64,000 nucleotides of DNA from Acetobacter lambici. Lineage in GTDB: Bacteria; Pseudomonadota; Alphaproteobacteria; Acetobacterales; Acetobacteraceae. The position numbers and the translations under genes are program-made. The notes under the pieces were generated by a model. It ran no database searches. It worked only from the letters and a program-made list of their open reading frames with translations, and was not told where the DNA came from. Position 1 is the stretch's first letter. Every line of letters begins with the position of its first letter. The stretch lies in NCBI RefSeq assembly GCF_011516885.1, contig NZ_WOTD01000001.1, forward strand, positions 248,001-312,000, written 5' to 3'. This document shows positions 34,733 through 41,904 of this stretch, in pieces.

Positions 34733-36565
34733 TCAGATATCCGCGTCATCCAGTCCGCCACGGCGCAGGCGCTCCATGGCCTCCAGCCGCGCCTGTAATC
34801 TCTGCCACTGGCTGGTATCTCCCGTTTTTTCGGAAAAAAAACGGGCCACATCGTCCGTAACCTCACGTATGAACTGGTCACGGTACAACAAGCCGTAAAA
34901 ATGCCACCATCGTGTTCTGGCAGCAACAATCTCCACGTCCCCATGGCTCAGGCCTGTGCCATCAACACGCATGAGCGGCGCCAGAGTTGCCTCCTGCCCG
35001 TGCTCCTTCAGCCATACCTGCAGGTCATCCCCTGTTTGGGGCAGACGACCATCGGCCGACAAGTCCAGCAGCACACCACGCAATGGCGCAAAATCCACTG
35101 GTAAGTCAAGGCGGCACAGGGCTTCTTCCATTTCCGCCACCAGTTGCGGGTGCTCCACCAGCAGCAGCAGCATAAGCCGCTGCTGCTCACGCACCTGATC
35201 CATATCCACCGTGTGCGAATCCTGCACAGCACCCGGCGGAACAAAATTGGGCCTGCCCCCCTTATGCTGCTTCCCCCGCCCCTGCTGGCGGAAAGTCGCA
35301 AAAAAACGGTCAAACAGCGTTGCGCGGTATTCCGAGGCCAGAGCCTTGTCTGGAATAAGAGCGGCAACTTCGGCCAGCCTGCGCCGCAGGGCGGCCCGCT
35401 CCTCCGGCCCCGGACTGGTCACACCGCCCACCAGCAGGTCGAACAGTACGCTGGACAGGGGGGATGCCCCGGCAAAAAACTCGGCTACAAACGCAGCCCC
35501 CCGCTGGCGGACCAGACTGTCGGGGTCCTCCCCATCGGGCAGAAGGCAGATGCGGAGCGTGTGGTCGGGTGCGAGCAGAGGCAACCCGGTTTCTGCTGCC
35601 TTGACCGCAGCCCGCCTGCCTGCACCATCACCGTCAAAACACAATATGGGGGCGCGATCGACCTGCCACAACACTTCCAGTTGCTCAGGTGTGAGGGCCG
35701 TACCCAATGGGGCTACCGCCCCCGTAAAGCCCGCCTGATGCAGGGCTATGACATCCATATAGCCTTCCACCACAATCAGGTCCGGGGCTACCACACCCTT
35801 TGGTCTTGGCGCTCGCACGGCAGCGCGGGCGCGGTCCAGCCCGAACAGCAGCCTGCGCTTGGAAAAAAGCTGGGTTTCCGGCCCGTTCAGGTATTTGGGC
35901 TGCCCATCCCCCAGAATACGCCCCCCGAAGGAGACAAGCCGCCCCTTGCGGTCACGGATAGGGAACGTCACACGCCCCCAGAACAGCTCCCCTTTGGGCT
36001 GCCCATCCTCATCCACCCGCATCAGCCCGGCCTGCGCCATCTGCTCCGGTGTAATGCCCTGTGGGGCCAGCGCTTCCACCAACTGACCACGCCCCGCACT
36101 GGCCCAACCCAGACCAAATGCTGCTATGGTCTCACGCGTAAGACCACGCCCGAGCAGATAGTCCAGCCCGGCGCGGCCTTCGGGTTTGTACAGTGCTGCC
36201 GACCACACCGCCTGCGCGGCCTCCAGCACATCCTCCAAAGAGCGGACATGGGCCACCTGCTCACGCATGACGCGGGTGTCCTTTGGCACTTCCATGCCTG
36301 CGGCGGAGGACAGCTCTTCCACCGCCTCGGGGAAGTTTTTGCCCTCCATCTGCATGACAAAGGAGATCACATCTCCATGCACACCACAGCCAAAACAATG
36401 GAAGTGGTCGTCATACACATAGAACGAGGGCGTTTTTTCCCCGTGGAACGGGCAACAGCCTTTCCAGTTCCGGCCAGAACGCGCGAGTTTGACCCTGCGT
36501 CCAATTACGGACGTTATGGGGGTGCGCGCACGCAACTCATCCAGAAAGTTGGAATCAATGGCCAT
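34733..36565 (-). CDS. dnaG: DNA primase DnaG
   Basis: Makes RNA primers for replication. 610 residues. The CHC2 zinc-binding domain has C38-P-F-H41 and C57-x-x-C60 (GCCPFHGEKTPSF, FHCFGCG). The catalytic core includes GRVTFPIRDRKGRLVSFGGRIL, then the Toprim motif LIVVEGYMDVIALHQAG, with CFDGDGAGRRAA and LLPDGEDPDSLVR. The C-terminal helicase-binding region is about 430-600. Part of the common alphaproteobacterial yqeY-dnaG-rpoD order; yqeY ends 24 bases upstream. Confidence 0.96.
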   Translation of the reverse strand: MAIDSNFLDELRARTPITSVIGRRVKLARSGRNWKGCCPFHGEKTPSFYVYDDHFHCFGCGVHGDVISFVMQMEGKNFPEAVEELSSAAGMEVPKDTRVMREQVAHVRSLEDVLEAAQAVWSAALYKPEGRAGLDYLLGRGLTRETIAAFGLGWASAGRGQLVEALAPQGITPEQMAQAGLMRVDEDGQPKGELFWGRVTFPIRDRKGRLVSFGGRILGDGQPKYLNGPETQLFSKRRLLFGLDRARAAVRAPRPKGVVAPDLIVVEGYMDVIALHQAGFTGAVAPLGTALTPEQLEVLWQVDRAPILCFDGDGAGRRAAVKAAETGLPLLAPDHTLRICLLPDGEDPDSLVRQRGAAFVAEFFAGASPLSSVLFDLLVGGVTSPGPEERAALRRRLAEVAALIPDKALASEYRATLFDRFFATFRQQGRGKQHKGGRPNFVPPGAVQDSHTVDMDQVREQQRLMLLLLVEHPQLVAEMEEALCRLDLPVDFAPLRGVLLDLSADGRLPQTGDDLQVWLKEHGQEATLAPLMRVDGTGLSHGDVEIVAARTRWWHFYGLLYRDQFIREVTDDVARFFSEKTGDTSQWQRLQARLEAMERLRRGGLDDADI

Positions 36566-36589: not shown

Positions 36590-37045
36590 TTAACCCAGCA
36601 GCGCCTTTACGGCGGCACTTGCGCGGCTCATATCCAGCACTGCACCAAACTTGCCTTTGAGCACACCCATGACCTTACCCATATCCTTCATGGATGCCGC
36701 ACCCGTGGAAGCAATAGCTTCGGCCACGGCGGCATTCAGGGTTGCCTCATCCAGTTCTGGCGGCAGATAGCCACGGATTACGGCAATTTCCGCCTCTTCT
36801 TTGTCGGCCAGTTCCGGGCGACCGGCATCACGGTACAGGGTGGCGGATTCCGTGCGGGATTTGATCATGCCGCGCAGGGCGGACACGCCTTCATCCTCAC
36901 TCAGCCCTTCATTGCCCTTTGCACGGCCTGCGATTTCCACATCCTTGAGCTTGGCCGTGACCATGCGAATGGTGGCAACACGTGCGCTTTCGCCTGCCTT
37001 CATTGCGGTTTTCAGATCTGCCATCAGGCTTTCACGAAGGGTCAT
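36590..37045 (-). CDS. GatB/YqeY domain protein
   Basis: 151 residues resembling the tail domain of GatB: TLRESLMADLKTAMKAGESARVATIRMVTAKLKDVEI, then GYLPPELDEATLNAAVAEAIASTGAASMKDMGKVMGVLKGKF and a final helix. YqeY proteins bind tRNA in some systems, but their cellular role is not settled. I chose the ATG at 37045, preceded by AGAAGAAG, over one six codons upstream. First gene before dnaG on the minus strand and divergent from carA. Confidence 0.88.
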   Translation of the reverse strand: MTLRESLMADLKTAMKAGESARVATIRMVTAKLKDVEIAGRAKGNEGLSEDEGVSALRGMIKSRTESATLYRDAGRPELADKEEAEIAVIRGYLPPELDEATLNAAVAEAIASTGAASMKDMGKVMGVLKGKFGAVLDMSRASAAVKALLG

Positions 37046-37116
37046 GCTTCTTCTACGCTCCATATGTGTTTATAATCGCTGCGCACCATATCACCCGCCA
37101 CGAAAAAAAGCTTTAC

Positions 37117-37178
37117 GGGAAAAAACTTCCCAGCCTCCCGCAGGGTCAGCGCCTGCTGGTGGGAAATTTCTTCCCACC
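37117..37178. promoter_or_regulatory. Twin dyads GGGAA-N5-TTCCC upstream of carA
   Basis: Site 1 spans 37117-37131 and site 2 spans 37161-37175, with the second extended by three more bases per side (GGTGGGAA-N5-TTCCCACC, 37158-37178). Centres are 44 bp apart, near four helical turns, so both would face the same side. They lie 43-104 bases before the carA start and in the yqeY/carA divergent gap. They look like a paired operator; the binding protein is unknown. Confidence 0.55.
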
Positions 37179-37220
37179 GGTTTGACATGCTGCTAAAAGA
37201 GCGCCCCGGGAGGAACCATT

Positions 37221-38633
37221 TTGCACATGCCCATGTCAATCGACTCCATTATAGCCCGCATTGGCGGAGCAGACGCCACGGCGCGGCTGACCGGCGTTGG
37301 CACCGAGGCCATTCGCAAATGGCGGCAGGCGCAGGCCATTCCCTCCCGCCATTGGACAGCCATTGCCCAGGCCACGGGTCTTTCCCTTCAGGACCTCCAG
37401 CCCGCACCCGCAGTTACAGACAGACCCTCCCCGCTTGCGGGAGGCAGCCAGACAGGATCATCCATGCCTCAAGCCCGCCCGGATGGCGCGACCGCCGCTC
37501 TTGTTCTCGCTGATGGCAGCGTATTGTGGGGGAAAGGCTTTGGTGCCTTCACACCCAAACCCGCCATTGGGGAAATCTGCTTTTCCACCGGCATGACCGG
37601 GTATCAGGAAACCCTGACCGACCCTTCCTTTGCCGGGCAGATCATCACCTTCACCTTCCCGCATATCGGCAACGTTGGCACGAATGCGGAGGATGACGAG
37701 GCCACGCGCCCCGCAGCTCTTGGGCTGGTGGTCAAGGAAGACCCGACCGAGCAGGCCAACTGGCGCGCGACCAGCAGTCTGGATGCGTGGCTCAAGCAGC
37801 ACGGCACCCCCAGCATTGCCGGCGTGGACACCCGCAGCCTGACCCTGAAAATCCGCGATGGTGGCGCACAGACCGCAGCCCTCGTATTCCCCGCCGACGG
37901 CAAGTTTGATCTGGACGCCATTGCCGCCGCAGTTACCGCGTGGCCGGGGCTGGAGGGCATGGACCTTGCCAAGGAAGTCACCTGCACAGCACCCTATGAA
38001 TGGTCCGAAGGTGTATGGTCGTGGCCTGCCAACACCGCAGCCCCCACAGGCAAACGCCGCAAGGTTGTCGCCGTGGATTACGGGGCCAAACGCAACATCC
38101 TGCGCTGCCTTGTCAGTGCCGGGTGCGACGTGACCGTGGTCCCCGCCACCACCACGGGCGAGCAGATACTGGCACTCAAACCCGAAGGTGTGTTCCTCTC
38201 CAACGGTCCGGGGGACCCTGCGGCCACCGCCACCTACGCCGTGCCCGCCATCCGCACCGTGCTGGAAGCTGGCATACCGCTGTTTGGCATCTGCCTCGGG
38301 CACCAGTTGCTTGCGCAAGCACTGGGGGCCAAGACCTACAAAATGGAACGCGGCCACCGGGGGGCTAACCAGCCCGTGCAGGACCTGGCAACCGGCAAGG
38401 TGGAAATTACCAGCCAGAACCACGGTTTTGCCGTAGATGCCAAAACCCTGCCCGAAAACGCGCATGTCACCCACGTCAGCCTGTTTGATGGCTCGAACGA
38501 AGGTCTGGCATCGGATAAATACGCAGCGTTTTCCGTGCAGTACCACCCCGAAGCAAGCCCCGGCCCGTCCGACAGTTTTTATCTGTTCGAACGCTTTGTC
38601 ACCCTGATCGACACCAACGGCGTCAAGCACTAA
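37221..38633 (+). CDS. carA: Carbamoyl-phosphate synthase small subunit with N-terminal HTH-like domain
   Basis: Glutaminase subunit that feeds ammonia to CarB for carbamoyl phosphate (arginine and pyrimidine synthesis). 470 residues instead of about 380-390. Residues about 6-55 ([26 protein letters not shown] and [20 protein letters not shown]) form a helix-turn-helix-like unit similar to the short domain I recall NCBI naming carph-isopro, joined by a Pro/Ser-rich linker. The CPSase small-chain domain starts near 90 ([16 protein letters not shown]); the GATase has the nucleophile Cys in [15 protein letters not shown] and [15 protein letters not shown] six bases before TTG 37221 (or 12 before ATG 37227) supports translation of the extension. 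An internal ATG at 37464 with AGGA could give a short form. Confidence 0.92.
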
Positions 38634-38649
38634 CAGGACCGAACGCATC

Positions 38650-41600
38650 ATGCCCAAACGGACAGACATCCGCTCCATCCTCATCATCGGCGCCGGTCCC
38701 ATTGTTATCGGTCAGGCGTGCGAGTTCGACTATTCCGGCGCGCAGGCCTGCAAGGCCCTGCGGGAGGAGGGTTACCGGGTTATTCTGGTCAACTCCAACC
38801 CCGCCACCATCATGACCGACCCCGGCCTTGCGGACGCCACCTATGTGGAGCCCATTACGCCAGAAGTGGTCGAGCGCATTATTCTCAAGGAAAAGCCCGA
38901 CGCGGTCCTGCCAACCATGGGTGGGCAGACAGCGCTGAACACAGCCATGGCGCTGCATGCCTCGGGCTTTTTGGAAAAGCATAATGTTGAACTGATCGGC
39001 GCGAAAGCCGACGTGATCGACCGCGCAGAAGACCGGCAGAAGTTCCGCGAGGCCATGGACGCCATTGGCATTGAAAGCCCACGCAGCTTTATTGCCCACA
39101 CACTAGCCGAAGCGCACGAAGCGCTCAAGCAGATCGGCTTCCCCACCATTATCCGCCCCTCCTTTACCATGGGTGGTTCGGGCGGCGGTATTGCCTATAA
39201 CCGCGAGGAGTTCGAGCGGATCATCCTCTCGGGTCTGGACGCCTCGCCCACCACGGAAGTGCTGGTCGAAGAGTCCGTGCTGGGCTGGAAAGAGTATGAA
39301 ATGGAAGTTGTGCGCGACACGGCGGACAACTGCATTATCATCTGCTCGATCGAAAACATCGACCCCATGGGCATCCATACGGGGGACTCCATTACAGTCG
39401 CGCCCGCCCTTACGCTGACCGACAAGGAATACCAGCGTATGCGCGATGCCTCGCTGGCATGCCTGCGCGCCATTGGGGTGGAAACGGGTGGTTCCAACGT
39501 GCAGTTCGGCATTAACCCCGCCGATGGCCGCATGGTTGTGATCGAGATGAACCCCCGTGTCTCGCGCTCATCCGCCCTTGCGTCCAAGGCTACGGGCTTC
39601 CCCATTGCCAAGGTCGCAGCCAAACTTGCGGTTGGCTACACGCTGGATGAGCTGAAAAACGACATCACGCGCACAACTCCGGCCTCCTTCGAGCCGACCA
39701 TTGACTACGTTGTGGTCAAAATTCCGCGCTTTACGTTTGAAAAATTCCCCGGCGCTCCGGCTCTGCTCTCCACCTCCATGAAGTCGGTTGGTGAGGCCAT
39801 GGCCATTGGCCGCTCCTTCCCCGAGGCACTCCAGAAGGGCCTGCGCTCGATGGAAACCGGCCTGCACGGGCTGGACCCGGTGGAAGCCCCCGGCGATGGT
39901 GGGGAAGACGCATTCCGCGCCGCCCTCTCCCAGCCCCGGCCCGAGCGTATTCTTATGGCCGCTCAGGCGCTGCGTGCAGGCCTGTCGGTTGAGGCCATTC
40001 ATGAAGCCTGCAAGTTTGAGCCGTGGTTCCTGCGCGAGATGGAAAAAATCATCCGTGCCGAGCGCGAGGTCGAACACCACGGTCTGCCCAAGGACGCACA
40101 GAGCCTGCGCCGCCTGAAGGCCCTTGGCTTTTCAGACGTGCAACTCTCCCGCCTGTCGGGCACACAGCCCGAGGAAGTGGACGAGCTGCGCACAAAAGCG
40201 GGCGTAACACCGGTCTACCGCCGGATTGATACGTGCGCTGGCGAGTTTACCTCCGCAACACCGTACATGTATTCCAGCTACGAAGGGCATTTTGCCCCCC
40301 CGATCTGTGAATCCAACCCGACAGACCGCGAAAAGATCATTATCCTTGGGGGTGGTCCCAACCGCATTGGTCAGGGGATCGAGTTCGACTATTGCTGTGT
40401 TCATGCCGCCTACGCCCTGCGTGAGGCCGGGTATGAAACCATTATGGTCAACTGCAACCCCGAGACGGTCTCCACCGACTACGACACATCCGACCGTCTG
40501 TATTTTGAACCCCTTACGGCCGAGGACGTCATTGCCCTGATCCGTTGCGAACAGCGCAACGGCACGGTCAAGGGCTGCATTGTGCAGTATGGCGGACAGA
40601 CCCCGCTCAAACTCTCCCGCGCACTGGAAGCGGCTGGCATTCCGCTGCTGGGCACACCAGCCGATGCCATTGACCGGGCAGAGGACCGCGAGCGCTTTCA
40701 GGCCATGTTGCACACACTTGGTCTGCGCCAGCCCGAAAACGGCATTGCCCGCAGCCCCGAGGAAGCCGAAGCTGTGGCCGAGCGCGTGGGCTACCCCGTA
40801 GTCGTGCGTCCGTCCTACGTGCTGGGTGGCCGGGCGATGGAAATTGTGTATGACCGCGCCTCCCTCCAGCGTTACATGCGTGACGTGCTGCGCGTTGCCG
40901 GGCACGAAATTTCCTCCGGCCCCATTCTGCTCGACCGCTACCTGAACGAAGCGATCGAAGCCGATGTGGACTGCATTGCCGATGGCACGGACGTGTACGT
41001 GGCAGGCGTTATGGAACACATTGAGGAAGCGGGCATTCACTCGGGCGACAGCGCCTGCGCACTGCCGCCCTATACCCTCTCCCCCGCCATTGTGACCGAG
41101 CTTAAGGCCCAGACCGAGGCCATGGCGCGTGAGCTTGGCATTGTGGGGCTGATGAACGTCCAATACGCGATCAAGGATCAGGAGATCTTTGTGCTGGAGG
41201 TCAATCCGCGTGCCTCGCGCACCGTGCCGTTCGTGGCCAAGGCAACGGGGGTTCCGGTTGCCAAGATTGGCGCACGGGTTATGGCGGGCAGCAAGCTGAG
41301 CGGCTTTAATCTGGACGACCGGGCCGTGGTGCCGCACGTGGCTGTCAAGGAGGCGGTGTTCCCCTTCAACCGCTTTGCCGAAGTGGACACCATTCTGGGG
41401 CCGGAAATGCGCTCCACGGGTGAGGTCATGGGGCTGGATACGTCCTTTGAGCGGGCCTTTGCCAAATCACAGCTTGGGGCTGGCGTGCGCCTGCCCATGA
41501 GTGGCACGGTGTTCCTGTCCGTGCGGGAGAGCGACAAACCGCAACTGCCCCCGCTGGGCCGCCTGCTGGCCTCCATGGGCTTTAAAATCGTGGCAACACG

Positions 41601-41904
41601 GGGCACGGCGCGCAAGCTGCGTGACTCCGGGATCGAGGTCAGTGTGGTCAACAAGGTGCTCGAAGGCCGCCCGCATTGCGTGGACGCCATTCGCTCGGGC
41701 GAAGTGCAGATGGTCATTAACACCGCACAGGGCGCACAGTCCGTGGCGGACAGTTTTGACATCCGCCGTTCCGCCCTTGTACTGGGCATTCCGCACTACA
41801 CCACCATGGCGGGCGCACGCGCTGCAATCCACGCTATTGCGGCAATGCGCGAAGGACCGCTTGATGTTGCGCCACTTCAGTCATACTTTAGTGGTTCGTT
41901 CTGA
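38650..41904 (+). CDS. carB: Carbamoyl-phosphate synthase large subunit
   Basis: 1084 residues. Two homologous ATP-grasp halves: the first (about 1-400) with [41 protein letters not shown] and [22 protein letters not shown]; the second (about 560-940) with [42 protein letters not shown] and [22 protein letters not shown]. The C-terminal MGS-like allosteric domain (about 945-1084) has [35 protein letters not shown] 16-base gap follows carA, so the pair is one operon. Length is normal. Confidence 0.97.

Follow-up and report, generated by a model that had tools for sequence, protein, structure and literature searches.

The carAB operon of Acetobacter lambici is preceded by two GGGAA-N5-TTCCC dyads, and its first gene encodes a carbamoyl-phosphate synthase subunit with an N-terminal helix-turn-helix (HTH) domain. 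We propose, with a probability of about 0.8, that the dyads are a private carAB operator read by CarA itself, which would make CarA a trigger enzyme repressing its own gene. Autoregulation of carAB through the dyads had been suggested in a preliminary description of this DNA. It gains support from conservation of the dyads, from perfect pairs that occur singly in a genome and next to the HTH, from absence of the pair in the three readable genomes whose CarA is HTH-less, from overlap with a putative promoter, and from co-variation of the operator arms with the HTH. The features below are given in positions of the window, i.e. the whole 64-kb stretch of DNA that was analysed.

34733-36565, minus strand: open reading frame of dnaG, beyond yqeY on the same strand, with DnaG domains
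36590..37063, minus strand: yqeY, divergent neighbour (PF09424, E 1.8e-43)
37117..37131, no strand: distal (upstream) operator-like dyad GGGAA-AAAAC-TTCCC, GGGAAAAAACTTCCC, exact match
37161..37175, no strand: proximal operator-like dyad GGGAA-ATTTC-TTCCC, GGGAAATTTCTTCCC, exact match
37171..37176, plus strand: putative -35 element TTCCCA, with a conserved TGnTA 17 bp downstream; it takes in the right arm of the proximal dyad
37191..37199, plus strand: putative extended -10 element TGC-TAAAAG, at offsets 30-38 from the proximal dyad
37209..37214, plus strand: likely carA ribosome-binding site GGGAGG, read directly in the sequence
37227..38633, plus strand: carA with N-terminal HTH; likely start ATG 37227, TTG 37221 also possible
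37239..37400 (contig C1:285239-285400), plus strand: carph-isopro (NF046037) Cro-like HTH, E 6.9e-17
37407..37466, plus strand: probable flexible linker from the HTH to the CarA body (residues 61-80 from ATG 37227), pLDDT 34 and 31 in two blocks
38650..41904, plus strand: carB, next gene of the operon, a 1084-aa open reading frame named by reading

The N-terminal head of CarA

The body of the protein is a regular CarA, scoring 454.6 bits with TIGR01368 (cut-off 307.35) and containing both PF00988 and PF00117. Its head matches NF046037 over model positions 1-54 of 54 with 61.4 bits, above the curated cut-off of 38; matches to the Pfam YdaS and P22 Cro families fall below their cut-offs. The GGGAGG sequence also precedes the ATG in relatives, such as those of loci L026, L032 and L034.

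A Cro-like HTH fold is predicted for the head. Its structural model has five helices with a mean pLDDT of 93.1, and the nearest fold is that of Xfaso 1 Cro (TM 0.74-0.76); comparison with N15 Cro bound to operator DNA gives a TM of 0.66. The Foldseek search of the head returned no match at E up to 0.001, the best one being 3bd1_A (E 2.1e-02, TM 0.74, rmsd 1.2), and alignment to 3bd1_C with VIA-align yielded a Z of 7.3, a value that alone may reflect a common arrangement. A sequence profile of the head ranks phage Cro proteins first (E 0.0013-0.008). The model of full-length CarA has a mean pLDDT of 75 with weak stretches in the body too (121-160), and the linker between the HTH and the body is probably flexible. 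A search of this genome for a second carph-isopro protein able to share the dyad gave only weak matches (E 0.045 or worse).

Paired dyads upstream of carA

Both dyads lie inside the 163-bp gap between the divergent yqeY (minus strand) and carA (plus strand, ATG 37227). As originally described, they are exact matches 44 bp apart (start to start) with perfect 5-bp arms GGGAA/TTCCC in common and a 5-base spacer each; the arms of the proximal dyad extend to 8 bp, GGTGGGAA/TTCCCACC. The window contains no other exact GGGAA-N5-TTCCC site, and dyads with at most two mismatches are not enriched in it (27 compared to 32.1 expected from shuffles). The genome-wide search proposed in the preliminary description places single exact dyads at chance level, with 6 sites as compared to 5 for the reversed control, the other four all being located within long open reading frames. 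The telling feature is therefore the pairing. For the extended form TGGGAA-N5-TTCCCA, the proximal dyad is the one mismatch-free site in this genome; the distal dyad and six other genomic places have one mismatch.

A 15-mer on contig C28 that is identical to one found here was taken as chance; it is located within a 645-aa open reading frame that by eye encodes a penicillin-binding protein. A wider regulon of the dyad was set aside because dyads with up to two mismatches are near chance level in both the window and the genome.

The arrangement had been described as nearly four helical turns. More exactly, the 44 bp found here correspond to 4.2 turns, and the 38-40 bp of most of the family to about 3.7 turns. 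Spacing ranges from 32 to 55 bp across loci, so helical phasing is no strict rule.

Conservation in the genus and the family

The genus sample comprised 49 genomes, from which 47 upstream regions were read, the window's own included (G038 was left out for a contig edge and G035 for lack of a full CarA match). Both dyads are perfect in 34 regions; in 12 more the proximal one is perfect and the distal one imperfect; and one region (G039) has neither, so that the proximal dyad is perfect in 46 of the 47. At the family level, the carph-isopro domain was found in 189 of 200 Acetobacteraceae genomes and in 98 of 102 genera.

The set of HTH-carA loci was built from 221 domain matches, minus five of Mitofilin type and two that were frame-broken; the resulting 214 were reduced to 166 by duplicate removal. 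These 166 lean to high-scoring HTHs, as the best-scoring matches were taken, including the best 80 of 242 relatives. The pair was searched as two SGGAA-N5-TTCCS sites (S = C or G) located 28-58 bp apart, with mismatches counted over 20 arm positions, and was found in 164 of the 166 non-redundant loci. Total mismatches of 0, 1, 2 and 3 occur in 87, 54, 18 and 5 loci, respectively, so that 159 of 166 have two or fewer; among 830 dinucleotide shuffles, none has two or fewer and five have three. Among these 159 best pairs, 110 are spaced at 38-40 bp and 18 at 44 bp. The two exceptions (L254 and L259) retain a perfect proximal dyad alone. The arms are almost invariant across loci save for the outermost pair. 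An earlier set, which included some non-CarA rows and is superseded by these 166 loci, had both sites within two mismatches of GGGAA-N5-TTCCC in 167 of 186 regions, compared to 18 of 1860 shuffles. Thus, the scan upstream of carA in relatives, set as a check in the preliminary description, finds the dyads kept in close and distant relatives alike (46/47 regions in the genus, 164/166 loci in the family). At a separate locus (L058, genome G030), the HTH part of carA contains a frame break and the CarA match is split, owing to either an assembly error or a pseudogene.

The pair and the HTH occur together

Perfect dyads with 18-25 bp between them (start spacing 33-40) were searched in 200 whole genomes, a range too narrow for the 44-bp spacing in the genome of the window itself. 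The perfect pair is present in 52 genomes, once in each, and the reversed control in none of the 200. For 50 of the 52 pairs, the best carph-isopro match of the genome lies 20-81 bp beyond the end of the pair, and the other two precede the HTH motif on direct reading. The lack of a perfect pair in the other 148 genomes probably reflects mismatches or a different spacing. In 48 of the 50 coordinate-checked genomes, the HTH is located in an open frame of at least 454 aa; in G080 and G135 the frame has 189 and 220 aa, respectively.

CarA was also searched in 14 genomes, namely the 11 without the domain and G038, G039 and G163, yielding a match in eight and none in six. Four of the matches are contig-end fragments (G074, G116, G192, G223) and four are HTH-less bodies (G038, G039, G077, G163). 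The fourth HTH-less gene, that of G038, begins at a contig edge; in all three readable genomes (G039, G077, G163) the dyad pair is absent upstream of the HTH-less carA. These three controls represent two genera and have reduced genomes (1.7-2.1 Mb), in which a general loss of regulators may have occurred. Three single sites with two mismatches are present in G039, at a spacing that is not that of a pair, and in G163 the domain is found elsewhere, in an 82-aa open frame.

Co-variation of operator arms and HTH

The co-variation of sites and heads was analysed for 148 loci on a tree of CarA bodies, 16 of the 164 being left out for too short a body. A CGGAA-type operator was defined by at least three C among the four outer arm positions, and the HTH variant S...G/N, present in 15 loci, by Ser before and Gly or Asn after the recognition helix; the labels and the threshold were both picked after inspecting the data. 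CGGAA-type operators are found at 11 of the 15 loci with this variant and at none of the 133 others (Fisher p 1e-13, kinship disregarded), the remaining four of the 15 falling short of the threshold. Under a looser threshold of two of four outer positions, the counts are 13 of 15 and 10 of 133. Each trait changes six times on the tree, and the independent pairs number two on well-supported branches (six on all), too few for significance; with only these two, kinship could explain part of the co-variation.

These observations bear on the possibility that the dyads are the target of a separate transcription factor and that the HTH of CarA serves some different role or is a relic. Short open reading frames with the domain do occur in many genomes of the family and could encode such a factor. 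We nevertheless consider it improbable, given that 52 of 200 genomes have a single perfect pair, always before a CarA-type HTH, that pair and HTH are missing together in three genomes, that the arm variant follows the HTH variant, and that the HTH is kept in 98 of 102 genera.

Putative promoter and mode of regulation

A scan with the sigma-70 consensus found no promoter; the promoter-like elements came from the alignment of relatives and are deduced from sequence. The profiles cover 97 and 49 loci in two layouts, with 18 loci at other distances left out. The layout of the window is shared by 49 loci, where TTCCCA is located 17 bp ahead of TGnTA (complete motif in 37), with T at offset 33 and A at offset 34 in 43 loci each. 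In the other layout, 97 loci aligned on the proximal dyad have TTG at -7 to -5 in 93 cases, A at +17 in 94, and both in 91; the putative hexamers framing the proximal dyad are 17 bp apart. The ATG is at +28 in 61 of the 97, which suggests a leaderless mRNA. The proximal dyad therefore seems to overlap the putative core promoter in both layouts: it fills the -35 element here, and most of the family has it between -35 and -10. Such an overlap argues for repression and against a role at the RNA level.

The same geometry makes it quite unlikely that HTH-bearing CarA binds the dyads and activates carAB beside a weak -35 element. The dyad does overlap a putative -35 with four of six consensus bases (TTCCCA vs TTGACA), as an activator site might, but in 97 loci it is located between the conserved TTG and the -10 element, where binding should exclude the polymerase.

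Formation of RNA hairpins by the dyads in the carA leader, as an attenuator or a protein-binding RNA, is highly improbable. The proximal dyad could fold into an 11-pair stem, and the leader is more stable than its shuffles (z -2.74; 2 of 200 shuffles as stable). However, in either layout both dyads precede the putative -10 element and should therefore stay untranscribed; the arm sequence is nearly fixed, the outermost pair excepted; no Rfam match was obtained up to E 1; and a search for a terminator-like site at the dyads found none.

Finally, the preliminary description allowed for an action of the dyads on the divergent yqeY-dnaG. The divergent position of yqeY was confirmed in 142 of 161 loci, all of which were selected for having the pair, so that this count is no test of pair loss. 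The pair can be explained without this neighbour: it is also present in the 19 loci where tblastn (E 1e-4) detected no yqeY within at most 1500 bp, and the proximal dyad keeps a fixed geometry to the promoter-like elements of carA. That the dyads mainly serve yqeY-dnaG thus has very little probability.

Proposed mechanism of carAB autoregulation

Two marks of a trigger enzyme are found in CarA: a DNA-binding-type domain within the enzyme chain and conserved operator-like sites at its own putative promoter. In the autoregulatory model, two CarA heads would bind one 15-bp dyad, whose half-sites are one helical turn apart. CarA bound to the proximal dyad would block RNA polymerase, as expected from the overlap of this dyad with the putative core promoter, and the distal dyad would add stability to the complex, through either cooperative binding or bridging. 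We speculate that the oligomeric state of carbamoyl-phosphate synthase (CPSase) could set the number of available heads, and so couple transcription to arginine and pyrimidine status; this control of head availability is a guess made by analogy. The E. coli CPSase is described in PMC6245113 as a tetramer with ornithine and essentially a heterodimer with UMP, its oligomerization itself having no effect on the regulation of activity.

Related heads in other alphaproteobacteria

The class-wide search for the domain was positive in 84 of 385 genomes, five of the 84 belonging to the family. Out-of-family loci comprise 48 distinct ones, of which 43 were examined (L132, L289, L290, L293 and L300 were left out). 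Among these 43, the fused parts that could be named did not include CarA. Related heads are found on HisZ, PyrB, ArgB, NAD(P)H-hydrate repair (Nnr) enzymes and SerA in other alphaproteobacteria; many of the fusion loci (L305-L319 in the family of G292, L328-L330, L301-L304, L128 and L320-L327) have N5 dyads upstream.

HisZ genes in the family of G292 are preceded by two TTCAT-N5-ATGAA sites 39 bp apart at 14 of 15 loci, which are close relatives and AT-rich. Their 14 distinct regions contain 32 palindromes with spacer 5 (shuffle mean 8.6), 31 with spacer 7 and 28 with spacers 2 and 3, so that palindromes with other spacers abound there as well. One perfect dyad was identified upstream of pyrB (aspartate carbamoyltransferase; TTGCG-N5-CGCAA, three of three loci), argB (TTACT-N5-AGTAA, two of four loci) and the Nnr hydrate repair gene (TACGT-N5-ACGTA, three of eight loci; shuffle mean 1.05 palindromes). 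The Nnr test covered eight of nine loci, L325 near a contig end being left out. No perfect N5 dyad was found for SerA (L284; G305 contig C26) or for HisZ of two other families; together with two of the four ArgB and five of the eight Nnr loci, these cases show that the domain can be present without a perfect dyad.

The domain was also observed in Mitofilin-like proteins of other alphaproteobacteria, assigned by family scan (L105, L107, L117) or by eye (the rest); in L107, it shares one open frame with HemD. The 21 testable loci of the 24 Mitofilin-like ones have no dyad excess (2 palindromes in 2 loci, shuffle mean 3.1). The family scan gave no named enzyme domain for L121, L281, L285 and L294. 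The L299 protein (G445) combines a YdaS-type HTH and a nitrate-reductase-delta (TorD-like) domain in a single chain, and a similar HTH protein at L264 (G085 contig C18) has two TTTAC-AT-GTAAA-like palindromes ahead of its gene, as seen by eye.

Within this wider set, the putative operators come as a pair in CarA and in one HisZ family, and the generalization to other head-bearing enzymes is suggestive, not established. We tentatively consider, at slightly under even odds, a principle common to Alphaproteobacteria, in which CarA, HisZ, PyrB, ArgB and the hydrate repair enzyme would have gained a phage-Cro-type head together with private operators, two 5-bp arms located 5 bp apart, by their own start codon. 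The amount of the enzyme and its ligand-dependent oligomeric state would then set expression, with no separate regulator.

Discussion

Phage Cro proteins are stand-alone repressors of phage promoters. The CarA head resembles those of Xfaso 1, N15 and P22 in its predicted HTH fold and weakly in sequence, and unlike them it is joined by a linker to an enzyme. In terms of NCBIfam, it is a member of NF046037 above the cut-off, a model that names a domain only. A full-text search for the carph-isopro name gave no paper, and our literature searches, which mostly did not cover subscription papers, gave none on an HTH-bearing CarA among the papers listed.

Trigger enzymes of E. coli that combine metabolic and transcriptional control include BirA, NadR, PepA, PutA and PyrH, with PutA and PepA counted as single-target regulators (PMC8249747). 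CarA is like them in being a metabolic enzyme with a proposed part in transcription control. It differs in that its head is Cro/YdaS-like and is carried by carbamoyl-phosphate synthase, an enzyme outside this group of five. PepA and PyrH take part in the control of the P1 promoter of E. coli carAB; PepA wraps about 230 bp, and direct binding of PyrH was not found (PMC6245113). They are thus enzymes tied to carAB control, as CarA is by our proposal. Those two are separate enzymes, whereas here the carA product itself has the head, with short palindromes. The regulatory mode is therefore known from trigger enzymes such as PutA, and a Cro-headed CarA with private paired operators is probably new.

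Arginine and pyrimidine synthesis both draw on carAB, an operon whose control is a classic problem. Several regulators are required for it in E. coli (PMC6245113). Across a bacterial family, one fused domain and two dyads may handle it, and an autoregulatory loop of one protein and one operator is easy to test. The signature of head and dyad may also offer a route to finding further self-regulating enzymes from sequence.
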